From positions 1,474,501 through 1,538,500 of the forward strand of contig NZ_LCTZ01000002.1 of assembly GCF_001413955.1 (NCBI RefSeq): DNA of 64,000 nt, given 5' to 3'. The translations under genes were made by a program, and so were the position numbers. The DNA is from Flagellimonas eckloniae. Its GTDB lineage: Bacteria > Bacteroidota > Bacteroidia > Flavobacteriales > Flavobacteriaceae. Position 1 is the stretch's first letter. Every line of letters begins with the position of its first letter. Positions 2 through 12,194 of the stretch are shown here, piece after piece. Under the pieces are notes generated by a model. It made no database searches. It worked only from the letters and a program-made list of their open reading frames with translations, and was not told the DNA's origin.

Positions 2-1177
2 GTACATTCTCTTCTACAATATAAAAAAGATGGCGGCCTTATACCTAGAGGACCATCTGGCGGTAATTATACCTACGTAATGACAGGGGCGTCAAGCACT
101 CCTTTTATTGTAAGTGCCATTCAACAAGGGTTGGTAACAGAAAATCTAGATACTATTTATTCAGCCTTAAAAAAGAACCATATACTTGGTGGTATTATGG
201 AAAAAGCAGGCTATGAGCATGAAACCAACTTAGGAGGTGGGCTTTCCCACTATTTGAAGAACGGTTATGTACCTTACCCTATACCAGAAGGTAAATTTGG
301 AATACACCAGGATGGCGCTAGCCTTACCCTGGAATATGCATATCAGGATTTTGTATTGGCACAACTTGCTAAAAAATTGAATCATGAAGAAGATTATACC
401 CATTTCATGGAAAGATCCCAGAATTATAAAAATGTATATGATTCCTCTACAGGTTGGATGCGTCCTAAAAACCTAGATGGTATTTGGAAAGAGGATTTTG
501 ATCCTTATCTTTATGAAAATGGGTTCAATGAGTCCAATGGTGCCCAATCCACTTGGTTTGTTCCCCATGATCTAAAAGGCTTAGCTTATTTGATGGGAGG
601 AACTGAAAAAGCAATTGAAAAACTGAATACACAATTTATAAACTCAGAAGCACAACACTTTACAGCAGGCAGTTCGCACGATCGTGAAATGCATCCAGAA
701 TATAGTCGTATCCCTATTAATTATGGAAATCAGCCTTCCATGCAGACCGCCCAAATTTTCACTAAATTGGGAAGACCTGATCTTTCGCAGTACTGGTCGC
801 GTAAAGTTGTAAAATCTGTTTTTAGTGGTTTATCCCCTTCTACCGGATATAGTGGTGATGAAGACCAAGGTCTTATGGGTAGTCTTGCGGTATTGATGAA
901 AATAGGTATGTTTCAAATGAATGGCGGAGTTATGGAAAACCCTAAATATGAAATAGGTAGTCCTATTTTTGATAAAATAACCATACAATTGAACAACGAC
1001 TATTATCCAGGAGAAAAGTTAGAGATCAAAACCATAAATAATAGTTCCGAGAATATGTACATTGATAAAATTCAATGGAATGGTGAACAGTTGAATGATT
1101 ACCACATATTCCATCATGACGTTATTAAAGGTGGTACACTTGAGCTTAAAATGGTTGCTTCAAAACCCATTGAATAA
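2..1177 (+). CDS. GH92 family alpha-mannosidase, 3' part (5' end outside window)
   Basis: The frame is open from base 2, so this is the C-terminal ~391 residues of a longer protein; the first in-window ATG at 80 is internal. GH92 enzymes are Ca-dependent exo-alpha-mannosidases of the cell surface or periplasm. The fragment has the family's late landmarks: G-L-I-P-R-G near the start, F-N-E-S-N with the expected catalytic-acid Glu followed by W-F-V-P-H-D, then S-G-D-E-D-Q-G-L-M-G in place of the usual GNDD-G catalytic-base loop, and Y-E-I-G-S-P-I-F-D just before the last beta-sandwich strands. The loop is changed (D-E-D for N-D-D) but keeps acidic residues. It leads a + strand gene run that includes a fucosidase, PI-PLC and an inositol oxygenase. 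Family call fairly sure; linkage specificity unknown. Confidence 0.8.
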   Translation, partial: VHSLLQYKKDGGLIPRGPSGGNYTYVMTGASSTPFIVSAIQQGLVTENLDTIYSALKKNHILGGIMEKAGYEHETNLGGGLSHYLKNGYVPYPIPEGKFGIHQDGASLTLEYAYQDFVLAQLAKKLNHEEDYTHFMERSQNYKNVYDSSTGWMRPKNLDGIWKEDFDPYLYENGFNESNGAQSTWFVPHDLKGLAYLMGGTEKAIEKLNTQFINSEAQHFTAGSSHDREMHPEYSRIPINYGNQPSMQTAQIFTKLGRPDLSQYWSRKVVKSVFSGLSPSTGYSGDEDQGLMGSLAVLMKIGMFQMNGGVMENPKYEIGSPIFDKITIQLNNDYYPGEKLEIKTINNSSENMYIDKIQWNGEQLNDYHIFHHDVIKGGTLELKMVASKPIE

Positions 1178-1237
1178 TTTTTTCCAGACAATAAATAGAT
1201 TGTCAAAACTTAAGGATTAAACAACATTTATAACATT

Positions 1238-2527
1238 ATGCGGCTTTTTCCACTTTTATGCTTAATAGGTTTTACGCTTTCAGGACAGCTTAAGAACAAA
1301 CCAGCGCTCGAACAAGATTTTATGGATATGGGCTTTGGAATATTTGTTCACTGGAGCATGGATTCCCAGTTGGGCAGTGTTATAAGCCATTCTATGGTAG
1401 GAGCTTCAGATGATTATCTGGATAGATATATAAATGAACTTCCCAAAACGTTCTATCCAAACAAGTTTGATTCAGATGAATGGGCCAGATTGTTCAAATT
1501 AGCTGGGGCAGAATATGTTGTTTTTACCACTAAACACCATAATGGCTTTTGTATGTGGGATACCAAGACAACAGATTTTAGCATAATGAACACCCCTTAC
1601 GGAAAAGATATAACGGAAATGTTATTCAATTCCTTAAGGAAGTTTGGTATTAAAGTGGGCATCTATTTTTCACCTGAAGATTTTCATTTCCTTCATGAAC
1701 AAGGAACCTTAATTTCCAGGAAACGACACATGAGTCAGGTAACTGATAACCCAGAGCTTTTAGCGTATGATTTAAAGCAACTGGATGAGTTATTTACAAA
1801 TTATGGAAAAATAGACATGGTGTTTTTTGATTCTTTTGAAAAAGGACCAATAGTACAATACGTGCATTCCAAATACCCGGATGTAGTTGTAACTCGTGGT
1901 GAAATGAACACACCGGAACAAAAAATCCCTGATGTGGCTATGAAAGGGCCTTGGGAAACCTGTATGACCATGGGTACGCAATGGCAATATAAACCAACAA
2001 ATGAAACTTATAAACCTGGAACAGACCTCATCAATAAACTAATAGAAATTCGCGCAAAAGGGGGTAATTTCCTTTTAAACGTAGGACCAAAACCGAATGG
2101 CGAATTACCAATTGAACAAGAAGAACGTTTAAGGGAAGTAGCACTCTGGACGTTTGTTAATAATGAAGCTATCAAGAATATTCGCCCTTTACCCCATAAA
2201 ATAAAAGATGGTGATTTATGGTTTACACAGAATGAAAAAGAAAATGCTGTGTATGTTTTTATTACCGGTCAAAAAGATTGGTTTAAAGGATTCCGCAGGA
2301 ATTTTTTAATAAAATACCTGAAAGCTACAGAGAAGACTACTATATCGGTATTGGGACAAAACGATTTGGTAGTAGAATATTGGCCAGAAAACAATCCTAT
2401 TTCCACATTTACGCAACATGAAAATTCTTTAGAAATATCAATAAGTAAAGCTCATAGATTATATAATGATAAAATCTGGCCCAATCCAATTGTAGTAAAA
2501 CTGACGAATGTAGATTTTATAAAATAA
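1238..2527 (+). CDS. GH29 alpha-L-fucosidase (copy 1)
   Basis: A 429-residue protein with a Sec signal peptide (about residues 1-17). GH29 enzymes remove terminal alpha-L-fucose by a retaining mechanism. Visible landmarks are G-I-F-V-H-W near residue 36, T-K-H-H-N-G-F near 98-104, and M-V-F-F-D-S, where D198 matches the nucleophile normally seen in W-F-D. The segment ending L-N-V-G-P near residue 280 is also typical of the family. It lacks a long C-terminal accessory domain, unlike the copy at 60811. It starts 60 bases after the GH92 gene and is followed 28 bases later by a PI-PLC-like gene, which suggests one transcript. Its context, away from the fucose operon, suggests it trims a fucosylated glycan of the GH92 substrate; that is inference. 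Confidence 0.88.
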   Translation: MRLFPLLCLIGFTLSGQLKNKPALEQDFMDMGFGIFVHWSMDSQLGSVISHSMVGASDDYLDRYINELPKTFYPNKFDSDEWARLFKLAGAEYVVFTTKHHNGFCMWDTKTTDFSIMNTPYGKDITEMLFNSLRKFGIKVGIYFSPEDFHFLHEQGTLISRKRHMSQVTDNPELLAYDLKQLDELFTNYGKIDMVFFDSFEKGPIVQYVHSKYPDVVVTRGEMNTPEQKIPDVAMKGPWETCMTMGTQWQYKPTNETYKPGTDLINKLIEIRAKGGNFLLNVGPKPNGELPIEQEERLREVALWTFVNNEAIKNIRPLPHKIKDGDLWFTQNEKENAVYVFITGQKDWFKGFRRNFLIKYLKATEKTTISVLGQNDLVVEYWPENNPISTFTQHENSLEISISKAHRLYNDKIWPNPIVVKLTNVDFIK

Positions 2528-2555
2528 TATCAATTTTTATATATAAGGCTTACAA

Positions 2556-3629
2556 GTGATGAAAAAGAATTACCTCAATATGCTACTTTCTTTTTGTGTA
2601 CTTGTCATGGTAAATTGTCAAGGCCAAATCCAAAAAGAGGCTTTAAATCAAATTCAGGTCATTGGAAGTCATAACAGTTATAAAATACCAATAGAGCAAC
2701 CCTTATGGGAATATCTTTTTGAACATGATTCCCGCACGGCAGAATCACTGCAATATGGACATCCTTCACTAACTGAGCAATTGAATTTAGGCCTTAGAAA
2801 TTTAGAACTTGATATTTTTCATGACCCTCTTGGTGGAAGATTTGCCAATCCCGGCGGAATAGAAATTGTAAAAAAAAGAGGCGCGGTGCCTTTGCCCTTT
2901 GATGAAAAGAAAATATTGGAACAGCCTGGTTTAAAAATGTTCCATGTTCAGGATATTGACTTTAGAAGCCACCAACTACTTTTTAAGAACGGTTTGAAAG
3001 AGCTAAAAAAATGGTCAGATAAGAATCTAAACCACACTCCGATCATAATATTGATAAATGCAAAGGATAGCCAAGTTCCGCAAACCAAAAAACCATTACC
3101 CTTCACAACTGCCGCTCTTGATAGCATTGATATGGAAATAAAAAGTGTGTTCCCATTAGAGCAATTGATTACACCAGATATGGTACGAGGAGATTTTCCA
3201 AGCTTGGAAAATGCCATTTTAGAAAAAGGTTGGCCAGAACTGGGTTCAGTAAAAGGTCGATTCCTCTTTGTTTTGGACGAGAAAAAGGAAAAAATCGACC
3301 GCTATATTAAAAACCATCCCTCATTAAAAAATCGAATGCTTTTTGTAAACAGTCCGGAAGGTAATCCAGAAGCTGCTTTTCGGATTATTAACGACCCTGT
3401 TAAAGATTTCGATTATATAAAAGAATTAGTAACCAAAGGTTATATGATTAGGACCCGAGCGGATGCAGGTACCAAAGAAGCCCGAACCATGGACTATAAC
3501 AGATTCGAAAAAGCAAAAGCTTCAGGGGCACAGGTCATATCGACTGACTACTATATTCCCTCACAATTGTTTCCATCGCAGTTTCAAATTATTTTTAAGG
3601 ACGGCAGCTATGAAAGAATGAACAATTAA
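2556..3629 (+). CDS. Secreted phosphoinositide-specific phospholipase C, PI-PLC-C1 type
   Basis: A 357-residue protein with an N-terminal signal sequence ending near C-Q-G-Q (residues 21-24). The fold signature of the Ca-dependent PI-PLC X domain (PI-PLC-C1 group) is clear: V-I-G-S-H-N-S-Y-K near residue 36 with the catalytic His, L-E-L-D-I-F-H-D-P with acidic Ca ligands, and F-H-V-Q-D-I-D. The C-terminus has the barrel closing strand around I-S-T-D-Y-Y. The family cleaves the phosphodiester between inositol phosphate and a lipid or alkyl group. Next to a phosphoesterase, an HTCS, an inositol oxygenase and a symporter, its likely role is release of inositol phosphate from phosphatidylinositol or a GPI-type glycolipid. 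The true substrate is not visible from sequence. Confidence 0.75.
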   Translation: MMKKNYLNMLLSFCVLVMVNCQGQIQKEALNQIQVIGSHNSYKIPIEQPLWEYLFEHDSRTAESLQYGHPSLTEQLNLGLRNLELDIFHDPLGGRFANPGGIEIVKKRGAVPLPFDEKKILEQPGLKMFHVQDIDFRSHQLLFKNGLKELKKWSDKNLNHTPIIILINAKDSQVPQTKKPLPFTTAALDSIDMEIKSVFPLEQLITPDMVRGDFPSLENAILEKGWPELGSVKGRFLFVLDEKKEKIDRYIKNHPSLKNRMLFVNSPEGNPEAAFRIINDPVKDFDYIKELVTKGYMIRTRADAGTKEARTMDYNRFEKAKASGAQVISTDYYIPSQLFPSQFQIIFKDGSYERMNN

Positions 3630-3641
3630 AAGAGAGCCTTA

Positions 3642-5471
3642 ATGAAAAATAGATCTTACTTTTATTTTATTCAGATTCTCTGTTTTTTGGTTATTGGCTC
3701 ATGCAAAAGCGAACAAAAAACGATTTCAAAACCTATCAAAATTGCCTTTTTGGCCGATGTGCATCTACAGGATATTCATGCGAACTTCACCGATGCCAAT
3801 TACAAGGGAATCAAGAATCCTACTACCGGTAGTTACAATACCATAAGAACAATGGGGTCGCAACTGCGATCAACGCGATTATTTAACGAGAATTATTTCG
3901 CTTTTAAAACAGCTTTGGATGAAATTGTCTCAAGAAACATAACTCTTGTTGTTTTACCTGGTGATTTTAGTGATGACGGGCAACCCATAAATATTAAGGC
4001 ACTAAAAAAAATACTAGATGATTATATAGTAAACCATGGTATCCAGTTTTTTCTGACCACCGGTAACCATGATCCTGTGAGGCCTTATAGCAGAGAAGCT
4101 GGAAAAACTAATTTTCTAGGCGCTCAAGGCAATGAGCTAGCCATTTTAAGCGATAGCTCTCTTATAAACAACAATCATAAATTGCATCCTATAATCTCGT
4201 CCGAAATTAAACAATGGGGATATTTAGAGATTTTAAATGAACTATCATCCTTTGGTTTTTTTCCGAAAAAAGAATTTTTGTATTGGGAAACACCCTTTTC
4301 AATGTACGATTATGATAATTATACATTAACCGCAGCTGCTTCAATTTCAGCAGTGGAAAAAAGAAAATTCTCGGATAATGAAAAACAGATTTCCATTCCG
4401 GATGCCAGTTATTTGGTGGAACCTATAAAAGACATTTGGTTATTGGGTATAGATGCAAACATATATATTCCAAGTGGCAATTCTTCTAAAACCAACGAAA
4501 CCTCCAGTGCCAGTATTGGGTATAATAATATATTGACCCATAAAAAACATCTACTACCTTGGATACGAAAAGTTTCTTTGGAAGCGGAAAAGCAGAAAAA
4601 GATTTTGATAGCTTTTAGCCATTATCCCATGGTAGAATTTTATGATGGAGCTTCCAAAGAAATGGAGCAGCTTTTTGGGAAGGACAAGATGCAGATGCAT
4701 AGAGTTCCAAAAGATACCATTGCAGAATTATTTACTGATTTAGGAATACAGCTTCATTTTGGCGGTCATATGCATATGAATGATACGGGAATCCATAAAT
4801 CCACAAGCGGAAAAACACTCTATAACATTCAAACACCCTCTTTGGCTGGCTATATACCAGCTTTCAAAATACTTACCATCAATTCAAAAGAAGAAATGGA
4901 AATAGAGACTGTTGTCGTGGATTCCGTTTCAAATTTCAATTCCCTTTTCCGGTTGTATGAGCAAGAACATCAACATCTAAAAAAATCGGCAACAAATACG
5001 ATTTGGGATAAAGAAATATTAGCATCTAAAACCTATATCAATTTTACTGAACAGCATCTAAAAGAACTCGTACGCTTACGTTTTTTGAAAAACGATTGGC
5101 CAGCTGAACTTATCACAAAATTAGAAAAGTCGACTGGGAATGATTTATTAAAATTGGAACTAAAGAACACCAAGTCAATCCCCTCAATTGACAAACTCAG
5201 TAAAAATAAACCTGAATATATGGCTCTAAATAAATGGACCGGTTTAGATATGGTATATGATTTCTACAAATTGAGAAACGCAGGAGAATTGGCAAAAGGA
5301 AAGATTGGTAGCAAAAGATTGGCACAATATGAATTGGTATGCAAGCACTTGATGAATTGTGAAAATTTGGAAATGTCGCTTTGGGGCAATATTTTTTATA
5401 AGGCGATGCATGGGCATCCATCCGGAAATTTTATGATTAATCTAAAAACTAATACAATAGAGCGATTGTAA
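3642..5471 (+). CDS. Calcineurin-like metallophosphoesterase, lipoprotein
   Basis: A 609-residue protein with a lipoprotein signal (I-G-S-C, Cys21). All metallophosphoesterase motifs are present in order: D-V-H (D39, H41), P-G-D-F-S-D-D (D108), T-G-N-H-D, F-S-H-Y-P and G-G-H-M-H. The N-terminal ~400 residues are the phosphoesterase domain; the C-terminal ~200 residues form a helical extension I do not recognise. The start is 12 bases after the phospholipase gene, so they are very probably co-transcribed and act in the same compartment. A role in removing phosphate from the inositol phosphate released by the PI-PLC is a reasonable inference. The family also contains nucleases and nucleotidases, so substrate is open. 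Confidence 0.82.
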   Translation: MKNRSYFYFIQILCFLVIGSCKSEQKTISKPIKIAFLADVHLQDIHANFTDANYKGIKNPTTGSYNTIRTMGSQLRSTRLFNENYFAFKTALDEIVSRNITLVVLPGDFSDDGQPINIKALKKILDDYIVNHGIQFFLTTGNHDPVRPYSREAGKTNFLGAQGNELAILSDSSLINNNHKLHPIISSEIKQWGYLEILNELSSFGFFPKKEFLYWETPFSMYDYDNYTLTAAASISAVEKRKFSDNEKQISIPDASYLVEPIKDIWLLGIDANIYIPSGNSSKTNETSSASIGYNNILTHKKHLLPWIRKVSLEAEKQKKILIAFSHYPMVEFYDGASKEMEQLFGKDKMQMHRVPKDTIAELFTDLGIQLHFGGHMHMNDTGIHKSTSGKTLYNIQTPSLAGYIPAFKILTINSKEEMEIETVVVDSVSNFNSLFRLYEQEHQHLKKSATNTIWDKEILASKTYINFTEQHLKELVRLRFLKNDWPAELITKLEKSTGNDLLKLELKNTKSIPSIDKLSKNKPEYMALNKWTGLDMVYDFYKLRNAGELAKGKIGSKRLAQYELVCKHLMNCENLEMSLWGNIFYKAMHGHPSGNFMINLKTNTIERL

Positions 5472-5516
5472 TCCTAAAAAGAATGCTCTTTAATTATTAA
5501 AAATGTAAATTGTAGT

Positions 5517-8500
5517 ATGTTATTCAAATTATGTTTTGCAATCAAAAAACAAGTATGCCTTCTACTGTTTATCAGTGGCATAACTTTTTTATATGCACAA
5601 AACATAAAGTTTGAGCATTATAATGATAATAGTGGGTTGTCCCACAACTCGGTCCGTCATATTGTCCAGGATAATAACGGTTTTCTTTGGTTGGGCACCT
5701 TTTCAGGCCTTAATCGTTTTGATGGTTATGAATTTAAATCGTACCTAAGTTCTTTTTCCAATGAAAATAGCTTAAACGATGATGACATTACAGCTCTTGA
5801 GTTTGACAGTGATTCCAATAATCTTTGGATAGGTACCAGAAATGGGCTGACCAAACTTGACATAGAAACCCATAATTTTGATACCTTCTTGCCTGAAAAA
5901 AATAATCCCAACAGTATCACGGACCATGAAATTCGTTCGGTTCTGGTAGACAAAATGAAAAGCGTTTGGGTCGGTACAAAAACCCAAGGCCTATTTAGGT
6001 TCTATCCTGAATCTAAAAAATTCAAAAAAATACCTCTCGAAGGTTTTGAGTACATAAAAGAAATTTTTGAAGATAAAAAGGGCAATATTTGGATAGGCAG
6101 CTATGAAAAAAGATCCATTGCGAAACTCAACTTTGATAATTATGGGAAAATTGATCAAACAATAACGTATTCCCTATCTATTCCTTTTTCCAATGAGAAA
6201 AATCCTTATATAAACTTTATCTACGAAGATCATAAGTCAGATATTTTCGTAGGCACCCGAAGTGGTTTGTACAAATTGGACAAGGAAAATGATGTTTTTG
6301 AAAACCTCTATATCGATGATAGCTATACTAGAGATCAAGTTGGTCCATATTTTGTATCAATCGCACGTTCTCCGGAAGGGCGTTATTGGCTGGGGACTTT
6401 AGGGGGGTTGTTGGTCTGTGATCAATTGGAAGATATTGCAAAAGGAAAGTTTGAATGGCATTATACGATTCTTTCGGATGATACCTCACTTGTGGACAAC
6501 CTGATATCTTCTCTTTACTTCGATACTTCAGATGTTTTATGGATTGGAACCGAGGACGGTTTGGATAAATACGATCCTTATGAAAATCAATTTAAGTTAA
6601 ACAAGGGTATTTCAGAACATATTGACAATCAAGCACCCGGAATTAGAGGGTTTTCCAAGACTTTTGATGAAAAACTTATAGTTGCAACACGGCATAATGG
6701 CCTGTTCCTTTTTGATGATGACTTAATCACCCCGCTTTACAACAGAACTTCAGATATAGCCAGTATCTATTCCACAGATGGAAAGATCTTTTATTGTGGT
6801 CTATGGAATGGCAAAGTATTGGTATATAATTATGTGACCAAGGAAACTGATATCATAGATGTTGGTTTTAAATCTTCGCCTGTTTTGACCTTTAAAAGTA
6901 TAGACCAAAATAGAATGGCGATTGGTTCATTTGGAGAGGGAGCAATACTATTGCACAAGAAAAGCCTAAGGCCTATTCTCATTACAAGCAAAATAGCAGA
7001 AGGAAGTTCTATAAATAAAATTGCTTTTGACAAGGAAAATAAAAAATTATGGTTTGCAACGGAAGATGGTGTGGTCACATATGATATTTCTACCCAGAGT
7101 ACAATAATCTACCAATCCAATACTGAGGATAAAGAATCGCTGCCACACAATAATGTCAGTGATGTACTAATAGATGCCGATAATAAAGTTTGGGCTGCTA
7201 CTCGGATGGGCCTAAGCACCTTCAAACCAGAATTGAACAATTTTGTCGCCATAAAAGAACCCAAAGAACTTATAGGGAAATGGATTACCGATATGGTAAT
7301 GGATACTAATGGAAACCTTTGGCTGAACATGAATAACAGTATTGGTCGATTAAAGCCTAGCAGCGGGGCCCTTAATATTTATCATGTTAAAAGTGGAAAT
7401 AGGTTAGATGTTTTCAGCTCAAGTGGTTTTTATCACATAGCAGGTTCCAAGATATTTCTAGGAGGTAAAAACGGTGTTATCCATTTTTCACCCTACACCA
7501 TAAAAGAAAATCAATGGTCTCCAAAACCTTTTATCTCTGAATTTAAAGTCCAAAATAAAACGGTATACCCAGCAATGGAAATCAATGGACAAACTGTTTT
7601 GGACAAAGATTTAAATTTTCAAAGAGAGGTCACACTCAAATATAACAACCGCAATTTTTCGATCCAGTTCTCAAATCCTTCCTATTCAAATGAGCGATTG
7701 AACCAATTTGAATATATGCTGGAAGGTTTTGATGAAAATTGGATTTCGGCCAATAATAGTTCAAGAACCGTACAATACACCAATTTATATCCAGACAACT
7801 ATACATTTAAGGTCCGCTCCAGTAACAGTAATGGGTATTGGGGGGAGACAGCAAGTTTCGATATTAGAGTTTTGCCACCTTTTTGGTTTACTTACAAAGC
7901 ATTTTTCCTGTTTATATTGATAATAGCCCTTCTCATATTTCTTGGTAAAAAAGAATTAAAAAATAGGATGAAGCTAAAGCAAGCTTTGCTGCTTGAAAAA
8001 CTGAAACAAGAACGAAATGAAAAACTGAACAATGAGAAGTTTAGATTTTTCACCAACATCTCACATGAATTAAGAACTCCTTTGACCTTAATTTTAGGTC
8101 CAGCAAAGGACCTGTTGAAACAAGCAGGTAAAACCCAGAACGAGTATCAGGAAACAAGAGCCAAATTGATCCATCACAATGCCAACAGGCTATTGAACCT
8201 GGTTACCCAAATACTGGATTTTAGAAAAGCACAAACGGGCGAACTACAATTGAAAGTATCAAAAATTGATATTTTGGAACAATCAAAAAGTATTTTTGAA
8301 TCCTTTAAGGAACTCGCTAAAAACAAGAATATTTCTTTTAATTTCAACTGTGAAAACGAAACTATTTCAGGTTGGATTGATAAAGACAAACTGGACAAAA
8401 TTCTATACAATTTATTATCCAATGCCTTGAAGTTTTCCAACAATCATGGCAACGTAGATTTGTTTTTAGGGTTGAGTGATGATATGGCTGAACATTTGAT

Positions 8501-9596
8501 CATTGAGGTAAGTGATGATGGAATAGGTATTCCCGAAGCCAGTCAAAAGAATATTTTTTCCAGATTCTATCAAGCTAGAAACAGTAAAGAAAGTACGACC
8601 GGTTCAGGAATAGGTCTATCCTTGGTAAAATCTTTGGTTGAATTGCATAAGGGAAGCATAGCTTTTAAAAGTAAGTCGGGAGAAGGAACCATATTCACCA
8701 TAAAAGTTCCCATTAGTCGCAAATTCTATGAGGATTTTGAAATCAATGAGCTATTGCCATATCAAATCACCAAAGAAGTACAAGTGGTAAAACCGAAGAA
8801 AAAGATACTTAATTCTGTCAATTTAAAGCAAAAAATTGTGGTGATAGAAGATAATACCGAGCTTCGAAATTATCTTATAGACTACTTATCGGATTATTAC
8901 AAGGTTTATAGTGCAGAAAATGGAAAAGAAGGTCTTAGCCTCTGTAAACAGATCAAACCCATAATATGTGTTGCAGATGTAATGATGCCCGTTATGGACG
9001 GTTTGGAGTTTTGTGCCGCACTTAAAAGTGATGAATTTATTAGCCATATACCCGTAATCCTTTTGACAGCACTTTCGGAAAATGAAGATAAGGTAAAAGG
9101 ATTTAATGTTGGGGCAGATGGTTACTTAGTCAAACCATTTGATCCATCACTATTAAGAACCAGGATAGTAAATATCATCAATACCAGAATGGGATTAAAA
9201 TCCAAATTTTCTGTGGAAGCCGAAAGTGAAATAAGTCTTCTTACGCATTCTCCAATTGATGAGAAATTTATGCAAAAAGTTACCCAGCTCATCGATAAAA
9301 ATCTAAAAGAAACGGACCTGACAACGGCATTTCTATGTGCAGAATTAGGTATGAGTTCCTCTAAATTATATCGAAAAATTAAAGAGCTGACGGATTTAGC
9401 CCCCAACGAATTTATTCGTACCGTACGTTTGAAGAAATCAGCAATTCTTTTAAAGACCAAAAAGTATAATGTTTCAGAAGTAACTACCCTTGTTGGTTTT
9501 AATGATCCTTTATATTTTAGTAGATGTTTTAAAAGACAATTTGGATATCCACCAAGTAAACTTATAAAAGATGAAGTAAGAGTGGATATTATATAA
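5517..9596 (+). CDS. Hybrid two-component sensor/regulator (HTCS 1)
   Basis: A 1359-residue single-chain HTCS. Domain order: signal peptide (1-27), periplasmic beta-propeller of repeated W-L/I-G-T strands (about 30-700), Y_Y_Y domain (about 715-785), one transmembrane helix (about 790-812), HisKA with S-H-E-L-R-T-P (H850), HATPase with D-D-G-I-G-I-P, receiver domain with phospho-acceptor D1154 in A-D-V-M-M-P, and a C-terminal AraC-type double HTH. Such proteins sense oligosaccharides in the periplasm and bind DNA through the fused HTH. It follows the phosphoesterase by 45 bases and precedes the inositol oxygenase, so it probably regulates this glycan/inositol module rather than the fucose operon. 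Confidence 0.93.
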   Translation: MLFKLCFAIKKQVCLLLFISGITFLYAQNIKFEHYNDNSGLSHNSVRHIVQDNNGFLWLGTFSGLNRFDGYEFKSYLSSFSNENSLNDDDITALEFDSDSNNLWIGTRNGLTKLDIETHNFDTFLPEKNNPNSITDHEIRSVLVDKMKSVWVGTKTQGLFRFYPESKKFKKIPLEGFEYIKEIFEDKKGNIWIGSYEKRSIAKLNFDNYGKIDQTITYSLSIPFSNEKNPYINFIYEDHKSDIFVGTRSGLYKLDKENDVFENLYIDDSYTRDQVGPYFVSIARSPEGRYWLGTLGGLLVCDQLEDIAKGKFEWHYTILSDDTSLVDNLISSLYFDTSDVLWIGTEDGLDKYDPYENQFKLNKGISEHIDNQAPGIRGFSKTFDEKLIVATRHNGLFLFDDDLITPLYNRTSDIASIYSTDGKIFYCGLWNGKVLVYNYVTKETDIIDVGFKSSPVLTFKSIDQNRMAIGSFGEGAILLHKKSLRPILITSKIAEGSSINKIAFDKENKKLWFATEDGVVTYDISTQSTIIYQSNTEDKESLPHNNVSDVLIDADNKVWAATRMGLSTFKPELNNFVAIKEPKELIGKWITDMVMDTNGNLWLNMNNSIGRLKPSSGALNIYHVKSGNRLDVFSSSGFYHIAGSKIFLGGKNGVIHFSPYTIKENQWSPKPFISEFKVQNKTVYPAMEINGQTVLDKDLNFQREVTLKYNNRNFSIQFSNPSYSNERLNQFEYMLEGFDENWISANNSSRTVQYTNLYPDNYTFKVRSSNSNGYWGETASFDIRVLPPFWFTYKAFFLFILIIALLIFLGKKELKNRMKLKQALLLEKLKQERNEKLNNEKFRFFTNISHELRTPLTLILGPAKDLLKQAGKTQNEYQETRAKLIHHNANRLLNLVTQILDFRKAQTGELQLKVSKIDILEQSKSIFESFKELAKNKNISFNFNCENETISGWIDKDKLDKILYNLLSNALKFSNNHGNVDLFLGLSDDMAEHLIIEVSDDGIGIPEASQKNIFSRFYQARNSKESTTGSGIGLSLVKSLVELHKGSIAFKSKSGEGTIFTIKVPISRKFYEDFEINELLPYQITKEVQVVKPKKKILNSVNLKQKIVVIEDNTELRNYLIDYLSDYYKVYSAENGKEGLSLCKQIKPIICVADVMMPVMDGLEFCAALKSDEFISHIPVILLTALSENEDKVKGFNVGADGYLVKPFDPSLLRTRIVNIINTRMGLKSKFSVEAESEISLLTHSPIDEKFMQKVTQLIDKNLKETDLTTAFLCAELGMSSSKLYRKIKELTDLAPNEFIRTVRLKKSAILLKTKKYNVSEVTTLVGFNDPLYFSRCFKRQFGYPPSKLIKDEVRVDII

Positions 9597-9728
9597 GTCA
9601 TTTCATATAAAAATCAATCCATGCTTTTGGCAAAATACTCCATATAAGCTCTTACAGGAAATTATAATTTTATCTATGAGTAATTGACCTATATGTTTTA
9701 AAATAACATACCATTAAATTAAAATTCT

Positions 9729-10607
9729 ATGAAGAATTCTTCCAAAGCAACAGACAAAAACCCAATGGATCAAGTTGATGATTGGGAAAATAGTTTATTG
9801 GAAAGATATCCTGATCCTGATGCCACGGCAAAGGAGAAAGAAGAATTCAGAAACTATGTCGATTCTGAAAGGGTTGAAGGGGTAAAAGAATTCTACCGTT
9901 TAAACCATACCTTCCAAACATATGACTTTGTTTGCGAAAAGGAGAAAGAATTTTTAAAGTTTGATAAAAAGGAAATGTCGCTTTGGGGTGCCGTTGAATA
10001 CCTTAATACACTTGTTGACGATAGTGATCCGGATATTGACTTAGATCAACTACAGCATTTGCTACAAACTTCAGAAGCCATAAAACAAGATGGCCATCCA
10101 GATTGGTTCGTACTTACGGGTTTTATTCATGATATTGGAAAAGTGCTGTGCTTGTTCGGTGAACCGCAATGGGCCGTTGTTGGAGACACTTTTCCTGTTG
10201 GATGCAGTTTTTCGGACAAAATTGTATATCCAGAATTCTTTAAAGACAATCCCGATAGTACAGATGAAAGGTTTACATCCAAATATGGCGTCTATGAACC
10301 TAACTGTGGTCTGGACAATGTGAAAATGAGCTGGGGACATGATGAATATTTGTACCAGATTATGAAAAATCATTTACCGGACCCGGCATTGTATATTATT
10401 CGTTATCATTCTTTTTACGCCCAGCACAAAGAAGGAGCTTATGCCCACCTAATGAATGAAAAAGATCATGAAATGTTCGAATGGGTCAAAAAATTCAATC
10501 CATACGATTTATACTCCAAAGCTCCCACTCCACCGGATGCACAGGCGTTAAAACCCTATTACCAAGACTTAGTGTCAAAATATTTACCAGAAACATTGAA
10601 GTTTTAA
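9729..10607 (+). CDS. Myo-inositol oxygenase (MIOX)
   Basis: A 292-residue cytoplasmic enzyme of full family length. MIOX uses a di-iron centre and O2 to turn myo-inositol into D-glucuronate. All six iron ligands known from mouse MIOX can be placed: H110 (L-Q-H), H134 and D135 (I-H-D-I-G-K), H204 (W-G-H-D-E-Y), H227 (R-Y-H-S-F-Y) and D260 (F-N-P-Y-D-L-Y). The blocks around G-E-P-Q-W-A-V-V-G-D-T-F-P-V-G-C and C-G-L-D-N-V are nearly invariant in the family. A symporter gene starts 15 bases downstream, consistent with uptake and oxidation of inositol. The upstream gap of 131 bases has no exact TAnnTTTG element, so it may be read from the HTCS transcript or have a regulated promoter. Confidence 0.95.
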   Translation: MKNSSKATDKNPMDQVDDWENSLLERYPDPDATAKEKEEFRNYVDSERVEGVKEFYRLNHTFQTYDFVCEKEKEFLKFDKKEMSLWGAVEYLNTLVDDSDPDIDLDQLQHLLQTSEAIKQDGHPDWFVLTGFIHDIGKVLCLFGEPQWAVVGDTFPVGCSFSDKIVYPEFFKDNPDSTDERFTSKYGVYEPNCGLDNVKMSWGHDEYLYQIMKNHLPDPALYIIRYHSFYAQHKEGAYAHLMNEKDHEMFEWVKKFNPYDLYSKAPTPPDAQALKPYYQDLVSKYLPETLKF

Positions 10608-10622
10608 GACAACACAACTCCA

Positions 10623-12194
10623 ATGTTATTGACACTCCTCGGTTTTTTTGGTTTTACTTTTTTCGTGATTTTTTACACGATTTATAAATTACGCAAGGAC
10701 AATTTTAAAACTGGAAAGGAGTACTTTTTAGCAGGAAAAAGCCTTACGGGGCCTATTATTGCAGGTTCCATGATTCTTACCAATATTTCCACGGAACATT
10801 TGATAGGAATGAATGGGAGTTCCTATAAAAATGGAATTATAGTCATTGCTTGGGAGGTTACTTCAGCAATTGCTCTGGTGATAGCTGCCATTTTTTTTCT
10901 TCCCCGTTTTATTCGCATGGGGCTTACCACAATTCCGGAGTTTCTTGAAAAACGTTTTGACGGAATTACAAGATCCGTTGTTGCATTATTATTGATGCTT
11001 TCCTTTGTAGTTACGCTACTTCCAATAGTTCTTTACACTGGGGCAATAAACATAGAAAGCGTTTTTAATTTTTCTGAACTGTTCAACATTACCAAAAGCG
11101 AAGGCCTTTTATATACCGTTTTGGCAATAGGAGTAATTGGTTCCTTATATGCAATTTTTGGTGGTTTAAAAGCAGTTGCCTATTCCGATACGTTAAATGG
11201 CATAGGCCTTATGTTGGGTGGATTGTTGATTCCGGCCATAGCATTGTACCAAATAGGAAAAGGTAATGTATTTGATGGTTTAAGTACAGTATATGATTTT
11301 GCTCCAGATAAATTTGACATTATTGGAGCACCAGATTCGGTATTACCATTTTCAGTTTTATTTACCGGGCTAATGATCAACCAAATTTATTTCTGGGGAA
11401 TGAACCAGTCCATTATCCAAAGAGCCTTTGGGGCAAAAAACCTAGTTGAGGCGCAAAAAGGCCTAATCTATACGGGTGTTTTAAAACTGTTTGTGCCATT
11501 GATAATCGTATTGCCCGGATTGATTGCCTTTTACTATTTTAAAGACGCTTACTACGAAACACCAGACCTTATTTATCCAATGTTGGTAAAAAAGGTATTG
11601 CCAGCTTATTTATATGGTTTTTTCGCAGCGGTAATCTTGGGAGCAGTTCTTAGTACTTTCAACAGTGTTTTAAATTCTGCATCCACAGTTTTCTGTTATG
11701 ACATCTATAAAAAGCTGATCAATAAAAGTGTTAGTGATGAAAAACTGGTTTATTATGGTAAAATGGTATCCATAATATTGGCCATTGTTGCTATTGCAGT
11801 TGCTCCATTAGTGGCCTATGCCCCAGATGGTCTTTATTTTTTACTTCAGGAATTGAATGGAATCTTTTTTATTCCAATCTCCTCCGTAATCCTGGCCGGT
11901 ATCTTTGTTAAACAGGTAAATGCAAAAGGAGCCAAGGCTGGATTGTTTTTTGGTTTTGCATTTTACATACTTGCAACATTTATCTTAGAAGTCAACATCC
12001 ATTTTGTTCATCTTTGGGGAATAGAGTTTGTCCTGAACTTTATTATTATGTTAGCGGTATCCAAAATGTATCCGAGTAAAGACTATGAAGATACCATTGA
12101 ACAAGATACTAGTGATAAAAGCTGGCGATGGGTCAATGTTTCGGGTATAGTTTTAATAGCACTCACCATTCTAATTTACATTCTCCTATCATAA
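10623..12194 (+). CDS. Sodium:solute symporter (SSS family), probable inositol or sugar importer
   Basis: A 523-residue integral membrane protein with about 14 hydrophobic helices and the SSS/SLC5 signatures: Y-F-L-A-G-K-S-L near residue 35, N-I-S-T-E-H-L-I-G-M, I-F-G-G-L-K-A-V-A-Y-S-D near 180, and N-Q-I-Y-F-W-G-M-N-Q near 250. Members couple Na+ entry to import of sugars, inositol or other solutes. Its gene begins 15 bases after the inositol oxygenase stop, so myo-inositol is the favoured substrate. That link comes from context only; the sequence itself would equally suit glucose- or galactose-type SGLT relatives. Confidence 0.88.
   Translation: MLLTLLGFFGFTFFVIFYTIYKLRKDNFKTGKEYFLAGKSLTGPIIAGSMILTNISTEHLIGMNGSSYKNGIIVIAWEVTSAIALVIAAIFFLPRFIRMGLTTIPEFLEKRFDGITRSVVALLLMLSFVVTLLPIVLYTGAINIESVFNFSELFNITKSEGLLYTVLAIGVIGSLYAIFGGLKAVAYSDTLNGIGLMLGGLLIPAIALYQIGKGNVFDGLSTVYDFAPDKFDIIGAPDSVLPFSVLFTGLMINQIYFWGMNQSIIQRAFGAKNLVEAQKGLIYTGVLKLFVPLIIVLPGLIAFYYFKDAYYETPDLIYPMLVKKVLPAYLYGFFAAVILGAVLSTFNSVLNSASTVFCYDIYKKLINKSVSDEKLVYYGKMVSIILAIVAIAVAPLVAYAPDGLYFLLQELNGIFFIPISSVILAGIFVKQVNAKGAKAGLFFGFAFYILATFILEVNIHFVHLWGIEFVLNFIIMLAVSKMYPSKDYEDTIEQDTSDKSWRWVNVSGIVLIALTILIYILLS

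Follow-up and report, generated by a model that had tools for sequence, protein, structure and literature searches.

The closest known relative of the locus described here is PUSI of Flavobacterium johnsoniae (PusCD1, Fjoh_4168-4173), another Bacteroidota system in which a SusC/SusD (SusCD) pair is joined to a PF16670 phosphoinositide phospholipase C (PI-PLC) and a PF00149 phosphoesterase, and whose predicted role is the scavenging of phosphodiesters, with lipid head groups and nucleic acids as the likeliest targets (PMC8115612). PUSI carries no CAZy hydrolases, has an extracytoplasmic function (ECF) sigma factor and is induced by phosphate depletion, and myo-inositol oxygenase (MIOX) is not mentioned for it in the available text of that report (PMC8115612). 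In a 64,000-nucleotide stretch of the Flagellimonas eckloniae genome (the window, G000:C2:1474501-1538500; genes outside it are given in C2 coordinates) and in the DNA upstream of it, we find the same unit with a hybrid two-component sensor (HTCS) and three glycoside hydrolase genes in place of the ECF sigma factor and CAZyme-free content of PUSI, together with a MIOX gene. The unit of PI-PLC, phosphoesterase and SusCD is already known; the novel claim is the substrate. We consider it about an even bet (probability roughly 0.5) that this SusCD-type locus serves the use of glycosylated head groups from inositol phospholipids with a mannose-glucuronate-inositol-phosphate core, most likely the glycosyl inositol phosphorylceramides (GIPCs) of algae or plants.

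Two further systems invite comparison. Eukaryotes possess a MIOX-glucuronate route; the enzyme encoded here has the same six iron ligands, and its product would likewise feed glucuronate catabolism, but its gene lies within a SusCD locus, beside a PI-PLC gene and the bacterial genes UxaC and UxuA. The GH115-like protein of the locus shares the GH115 fold with BoAgu115A (PMC3879575) and BtGH115A of xylan and arabinogalactan polysaccharide utilization loci (PULs) and retains five residues of BoAgu115A, but it differs from that enzyme at E375, N398 and K374, is 687 residues long and has GH92, PI-PLC and MIOX as partners. The available text of a study of arabinogalactan use in Maribacter names GH115 and GH29, and no inositol or phospholipase (PMC11036162). 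Among the open-licence papers listed in our searches we found no description of PI-PLC, phosphoesterase and SusCD combined with GH115, GH92, GH29, HTCS and MIOX, nor any report of GIPC breakdown by such a locus, in line with an earlier sequence-only reading of the window that knew of no described locus of this make-up.

Gene content of the locus

We analyzed the reading frames of the window with Pfam and NCBIfam profile scans and also retrieved the 38.5 kb that lie 5' of it. The locus exceeds the window. Its plus-strand run begins upstream with SusC (C2:1466459-1469503), the adjoining SusD (C2:1469518-1471167) and the gene for a GH115-like lipoprotein (C2:1471288-1473351; PF15979, E = 1.7e-20), a divergent member of a family with the alpha-glucuronidase fold. 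The gene for a GH92 alpha-mannosidase lipoprotein of 773 residues follows (C2:1473356-1475677; PF07971, E = 4e-99); it starts 1145 bases 5' of the window, and its 3' part occupies window positions 2-1177. On the same strand come a GH29 alpha-L-fucosidase-like enzyme (1238-2527; PF01120, E = 1e-66), a PI-PLC-C1 lipoprotein of the Ca2+-dependent type (2556-3629; PF16670, E = 5e-125, 417 bits), for which the ATG at 2559 is by eye the likelier start, a calcineurin-like metallophosphoesterase lipoprotein that is possibly a phosphodiesterase (3642-5471; PF00149, E = 1e-13), an HTCS with Reg_prop, Y_Y_Y, HisKA, HATPase, Response_reg and HTH_18 domains that is the probable regulator of the locus (5517-9596), MIOX (9729-10607; PF05153, E = 5e-111) and an SGLT-like sodium/solute symporter (SSS; 10623-12194; PF00474, E = 4.5e-59). 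All seven family assignments that the sequence-only reading had made within the window are borne out by the scans. Adjacent SusC and SusD genes (C2:1466459-1471167), the carbohydrate-active enzymes GH115-like, GH92 and GH29, and an HTCS together give the locus the composition of a SusCD-type PUL. By eye, a lipobox-like cysteine ends the N terminus of the GH115-like, GH92, PI-PLC-C1 and phosphoesterase proteins, whereas MIOX shows no signal peptide and is therefore probably cytoplasmic.

Divergently from SusC, the minus strand carries a PF06439 "3-keto-disaccharide hydrolase" gene, two Gfo/Idh oxidoreductases, a short-chain dehydrogenase/reductase (SDR), UxuA, UxaC and the genes DctP, DctQ and DctM of a tripartite ATP-independent periplasmic (TRAP) transporter, with a plus-strand NUDIX/NrtR-type regulator among these genes. 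The D-glucuronate route includes UxaC and UxuA, and MIOX yields D-glucuronate as its product. In two related loci (L044 and L046), UxuA and the SDR sit directly between MIOX and SusC. The two Gfo/Idh proteins, which have twin-arginine translocation (Tat)-like leaders by eye, span C2:1462126-1466189 (L002:6126-10189) together with the PF06439 protein, and these three may cleave a glycosidic bond of the substrate through a 3-keto intermediate.

Conservation in related genomes

Of 5722 candidates, 309 qualified as relatives of the GH115-like protein at E ≤ 1e-3, and the named ones among the 120 listed were mostly from Flavobacteriaceae. We mapped 72 loci sharing this gene with 10-kb flanks, several of which end at contig ends. 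In the gene maps, SusC-SusD-GH115-GH92 come first, and after them the loci differ in which they have of GH29, GH3, SASA-type esterase, PI-PLC, another GH115 of canonical type, phosphoesterase, HTCS, MIOX and SSS. At a match threshold of at least 40% identity, the flanks contain GH92 in 54 of the 72 loci, SusC in 41, SusD in 39, GH29 in 28, PI-PLC in 26, HTCS in 26 (in other loci the flank cuts the HTCS off), GFO2 in 23, the PF06439 gene in 22, MIOX in 11, phosphoesterase in 10 and SSS in 7. On the gene maps, the PF06439 gene immediately adjoins SusC in 21 of the 72 loci. Of the 58 loci with both GH92 and GH115, 57 have them at most two genes apart, and MIOX and SSS are equally close in 13 of the 14 loci that have both of these (90 loci mapped).

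For linkage beyond these flanks, the search was extended to the full genomes that carry L004-L053, 49 of 50 being covered (L040 was left out); they had been chosen for the GH115-like clade. A MIOX of the same class as that of the window, here called same-type, occurs in 30 of them and lies within 20 kb of the GH115-like gene in 29, compared with a chance expectation of about 0.3 of 30 under one random placement per genome; we reject chance clustering on this ground, although the genomes are related and the 30 are not independent events. In the thirtieth genome (G201), MIOX and PI-PLC are on another contig than GH115. A second MIOX class, counted separately, is present in eight of the 49 genomes and linked to the GH115-like gene in none. 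PI-PLC-C1 is likewise found in 30 genomes and is linked over at most 12 kb in 25 of them, and each of these 25 also has MIOX linked; four genomes have MIOX linked and no linked PI-PLC. The conserved clustering by which the sequence-only reading could be judged is thus present for both genes. The position of MIOX varies: some genomes have it downstream on the same strand, others upstream on the opposite one (L031, L043-L047).

Among the other 22 genomes of the GH115-anchored sample, MIOX exceeds the cut-off in 10 and is linked in 6, and PI-PLC is linked in 5 of the 13 that have it. Two gammaproteobacteria, Catenovulum (L069) and a metagenome-assembled Alteromonadaceae genome (L061), have a MIOX 40% identical to that of the window beside GH115, followed by GH2, GH43 and GH97 genes (from family scans in L069 and from matches in L061). 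In a Puniceicoccaceae genome (L056), MIOX is linked and PI-PLC is on another contig. In the four genomes where MIOX is unlinked (L065, Terrimonas; L066, L067 and L073, Chitinophaga), it has sulfatase-like neighbours instead. We also observed the remains of a MIOX gene, interrupted by in-frame stops, some 2 kb from PI-PLC-C1 in a Puniceicoccaceae genome (G250:C132:74391-75081), which has an intact MIOX on a different contig, and a GH115-GH92 locus of variant form that includes a GH28-like gene and an SSF symporter of ~710-730 residues in L048, L052, L054 and L056, with MIOX in the last two.

A second survey, anchored on PI-PLC, covered 199 genomes of the family, with at most five first-look candidates scored per genome. 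PI-PLC-C1 matched 17 of them (16 above the cut-off, 14 at near full length), MIOX matched 85, of which 32 exceeded the cut-off, and GH115-like matched 4. The two samples overlap in part, as the GH115 coordinates of three family genomes (G001, G002 and G011) are identical to those of three of the 49, and L031 shares its coordinates with G002. A same-type MIOX lies within 20 kb of five of the 14 near-full-length PI-PLC genes; one of the five is the locus of the window, and the others (L031, L094/95, L096/97 and L098/99) contain GH92 together with a GH115 from either of the two clades. In a sixth genome (G006), a second-class MIOX with two in-frame TGA codons lies 6 kb from PI-PLC. The remaining eight (L101-L108) are PUSI-like, with PI-PLC near a SusC- or SusD-like gene and without the GH92/MIOX set; four of them have a phosphoesterase (L101, L102, L104 and L107) and two have uronate genes. 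In these two (L105 and L107), which lack GH92 and MIOX, TRAP and UxaC genes adjoin the PI-PLC locus, along with UxuA and an SDR in L105.

Active sites and predicted structures

The sequence-only reading had credited MIOX with all six iron ligands, and alignment to mouse MIOX places them: H110, H134, D135, H204, H227 and D260 correspond to mouse H98, H123, D124, H194, H220 and D253, which we take, in list and numbering, to be the iron ligands. These positions are invariant in all seven aligned MIOX sequences. In PI-PLC-C1, membership is supported by both the PF16670 score and the retention of the His/Asn/Glu/Asp/His positions H39, N40, E84, D86 and H130, presumably catalytic, which are invariant in 11 of 11 aligned sequences; alignments to 5fyo and 3h4w cover only a middle stretch. 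PI-PLC-C1 genes of 612-618 residues occur in L020, L022, L023, L027 and L035, and the one scanned (L022) has a fused N-terminal alpha/beta-hydrolase (BD-FAE-like) domain. The phosphoesterase retains D39, H41, D108, N142, H143, H327, H376 and H378, assumed here to form the calcineurin-type metal site, in 13 of 13 aligned sequences. Its predicted model (mean predicted local distance difference test score, pLDDT, 83.6) is nearest to Lmo2642, followed by SMPDL3A/B, acid sphingomyelinase and, further down, GpdQ, and a diesterase or cyclic-diesterase role is therefore as likely as removal of a monophosphate. The phosphate removal proposed earlier for this enzyme is accordingly uncertain, SMPDL3A and GpdQ both being diesterases by name.

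For GH92, the closest solved structure is 6f8z, annotated as an alpha-1,2-mannosidase. The protein has GNQPS in place of the 6f8z motif GNEPSHH, seen in 57 of 70 GH92-labelled open reading frames scanned, and this change would fit a +1 residue that is not mannose. The best solved relatives of the SSS are the sodium/glucose cotransporters 2xq2, 3dh4 and SGLT1/2, and its probable cargo is inositol or a uronate.

The ten best Protein Data Bank matches to the GH115-like model (pLDDT 81.5) are all GH115 enzymes, followed by GH138 and GH67. Compared with BoAgu115A, the protein retains Y373, D396, Y420, H422 and N462 and has Ser for K374; for R328, D332, W249 and H275 of BoAgu115A, no alignable counterpart could be placed in it. 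The GH115 enzymes considered here are alpha-glucuronidases, several of them acting on alpha-1,2-linked glucuronic acid (GlcA). From alignment and model, we regard the protein as a divergent GH115 clade and a putative alpha-glucuronidase.

Elsewhere in the window, a minus-strand block at 16146-47889 contains genes that by eye encode pyruvate carboxylase, an FMN-dependent dehydrogenase, a FucP-like protein, an enolase-type dehydratase, a GH29 enzyme and four sulfatase-like proteins. This block could use fucose freed by the GH29 of the locus.

Discussion

Of the readings considered, breakdown of a glycosylated inositol phospholipid is the one in which every gene of the locus would have a part. 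From the gene content, the conserved linkage, the kept site residues of MIOX, PI-PLC and phosphoesterase and the GH115 fold, all directly seen, we infer a substrate, an order of steps, protein locations, transporter cargo and enzyme activities as follows. Cell-surface PI-PLC-C1 would cut the head group off the lipid, and SusCD would import it. GH29, GH92 and accessory exo-enzymes would remove fucose, mannose and other sugars, the GH115-like enzyme would split GlcA from inositol, and the metallophosphoesterase would open or remove the (cyclic) phosphate. The SSS would take up inositol for oxidation to D-glucuronate by MIOX, so that both halves of GlcA-inositol would converge at D-glucuronate and pass through UxaC, the SDR reductase and UxuA to 2-keto-3-deoxygluconate, with the HTCS sensing the substrate. 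More tentatively, and at somewhat less than even odds, we propose that bacterial GIPC catabolism works in this way, with PI-PLC-C1 freeing the head group, a new GH115 subfamily splitting alpha-GlcA-inositol and MIOX sending both core halves in as D-glucuronate, and that the module is common to Bacteroidota and, with a different MIOX and GH2, GH43 and GH97, to gammaproteobacteria.

The GH115-like protein would point to glucuronate on inositol, the core of GIPC (Man-GlcA-Ins-P-ceramide), and genes suited to each GIPC step are present: GH92 for mannose, GH115-like for GlcA, PI-PLC-C1 for the phosphodiester and MIOX for inositol. In the cited portions of the literature, all characterised plant GIPCs carry GlcA on inositol, the best-described being GlcNAc(α1-4)GlcA(α1-2)inositol-1-P-ceramide, and Man-GlcA-inositolphosphoceramide predominates in Arabidopsis leaves and callus (PMC8099651; PMC9113257). 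Galactose and arabinose are reported in larger GIPCs (PMC8099651), which the gammaproteobacterial GH2 and GH43 would suit. Gracilaria and Porphyra, both red algae, are also reported to contain inositolphosphoceramides (PMC5367019, PMC6017436), and PMC8099651 cites a survey of GIPC head groups "from algae to monocots".

Several observations weigh against this assignment. GlcA on inositolphosphoceramide is documented in plants, whereas the portions of PMC5367019 and PMC6017436 cited here name only the plain lipid for seaweeds. In the GH115-like clade, two important active-site positions differ, E375 and N398 of BoAgu115A being replaced by Asp and Gly, invariantly in 16 of 16 aligned sequences, and the E375A substitution in BoAgu115A is reported to cost about 5000-fold (PMC3879575). 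The core SusCD-GH115-GH92 module can stand alone: in 20 of the 49 genomes, MIOX and PI-PLC are both missing from the neighbourhood of GH115 (in one through a contig break), among them the Zobellia genomes G216, G220, G223 and G236, where PI-PLC lies elsewhere in three and a second-class MIOX elsewhere in all four. Nine of the 14 near-full-length PI-PLC genes in the family survey have no same-type MIOX nearby, and the genomes are related, so the linkage counts are not independent events. The accessory GH3, GH78-like and canonical GH115 genes of relatives would also suit a polysaccharide. As for the ceramide, alkaline ceramidase (PF04734) has no match in this genome, although such an enzyme is unneeded if the head group alone is imported. 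As a sphingolipid marker the family proved uninformative, with matches, mostly partial, in 13 of 50 genomes.

Other explanations were also weighed. Plain phosphatidylinositol, glycerophosphoinositol or free inositol, used for phosphorus and carbon by MIOX and a PUSI-like module that neighbour an unconnected mannose, fucose and glucuronate PUL, would be an unlikely target, though one to be taken seriously. The combination of PI-PLC-C1, phosphoesterase and SusCD does occur without CAZymes in PUSI, where it is induced by phosphate starvation (PMC8115612), and the PUSI-like loci L101-L108 of eight of the 14 family genomes have none of the GH92/MIOX set; two of them (L105 and L107) also have uronate genes. 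Set against this, every PI-PLC-linked locus of the GH115-anchored genomes also has MIOX linked (25 of 25), GH92 and GH115 stand at most two genes apart in 57 of the 58 loci with both, and the locus has an HTCS, unlike the ECF sigma factor of PUSI. It is improbable that the target is an algal polysaccharide bearing GlcA, mannose and fucose, with PI-PLC and MIOX as passengers. The Zobellia and Arenibacter loci with SusCD-GH115-GH92-HTCS and no linked PI-PLC or MIOX fit such a target, as does the fucose/sulfatase block downstream in the window, but passengers would hardly account for 29 of 30 linked same-type MIOX genes against ~0.3 by chance, or for a linkage that persists as MIOX changes position and strand (L031, L043-L047) and recurs in gammaproteobacteria.

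Glycosylphosphatidylinositol (GPI) contains mannose, inositol and a phosphodiester, with glucosamine between mannose and inositol, and GPI anchors or GPI-anchored glycoproteins such as arabinogalactan proteins would accordingly fit GH92, PI-PLC and MIOX. The sequence-only reading had proposed a glycosylated phosphoinositide of this kind. Its broader part is strengthened by the conserved locus of glycoside hydrolases, PI-PLC, phosphoesterase, MIOX and symporter with glucuronate genes adjoining, but its "GPI-like" part is not, as no enzyme for glucosamine was found among the locus genes named by family. GIPC fits better than GPI because a GH115-fold gene is present and no glucosaminidase or deacetylase occurs among those genes. 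PI-PLC also has limited action on acylated GPI, and we hold this target to be decidedly improbable. Turnover of the bacterium's own inositol lipids would be consistent with the inositol sphingolipids that some Bacteroidetes are reported to make (PMC9246714), but import by SusCD and the presence of an HTCS suggest a substrate from outside the cell, and we give this explanation very little credence.

Among the glycosphingolipids of plant membranes, GIPCs are described as predominant (PMC12201980). If the GIPC assignment is correct, the locus would represent a previously unreported microbial route for recycling an abundant lipid, in which glucuronic acid and inositol are turned into the same food molecule and inositol lipids are returned to the carbon and phosphorus pools. 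It would also assign a function to this GH115 subfamily and to the PI-PLC-C1 of Bacteroidota, and the enzymes may possibly be helpful for sequencing GIPC head groups.

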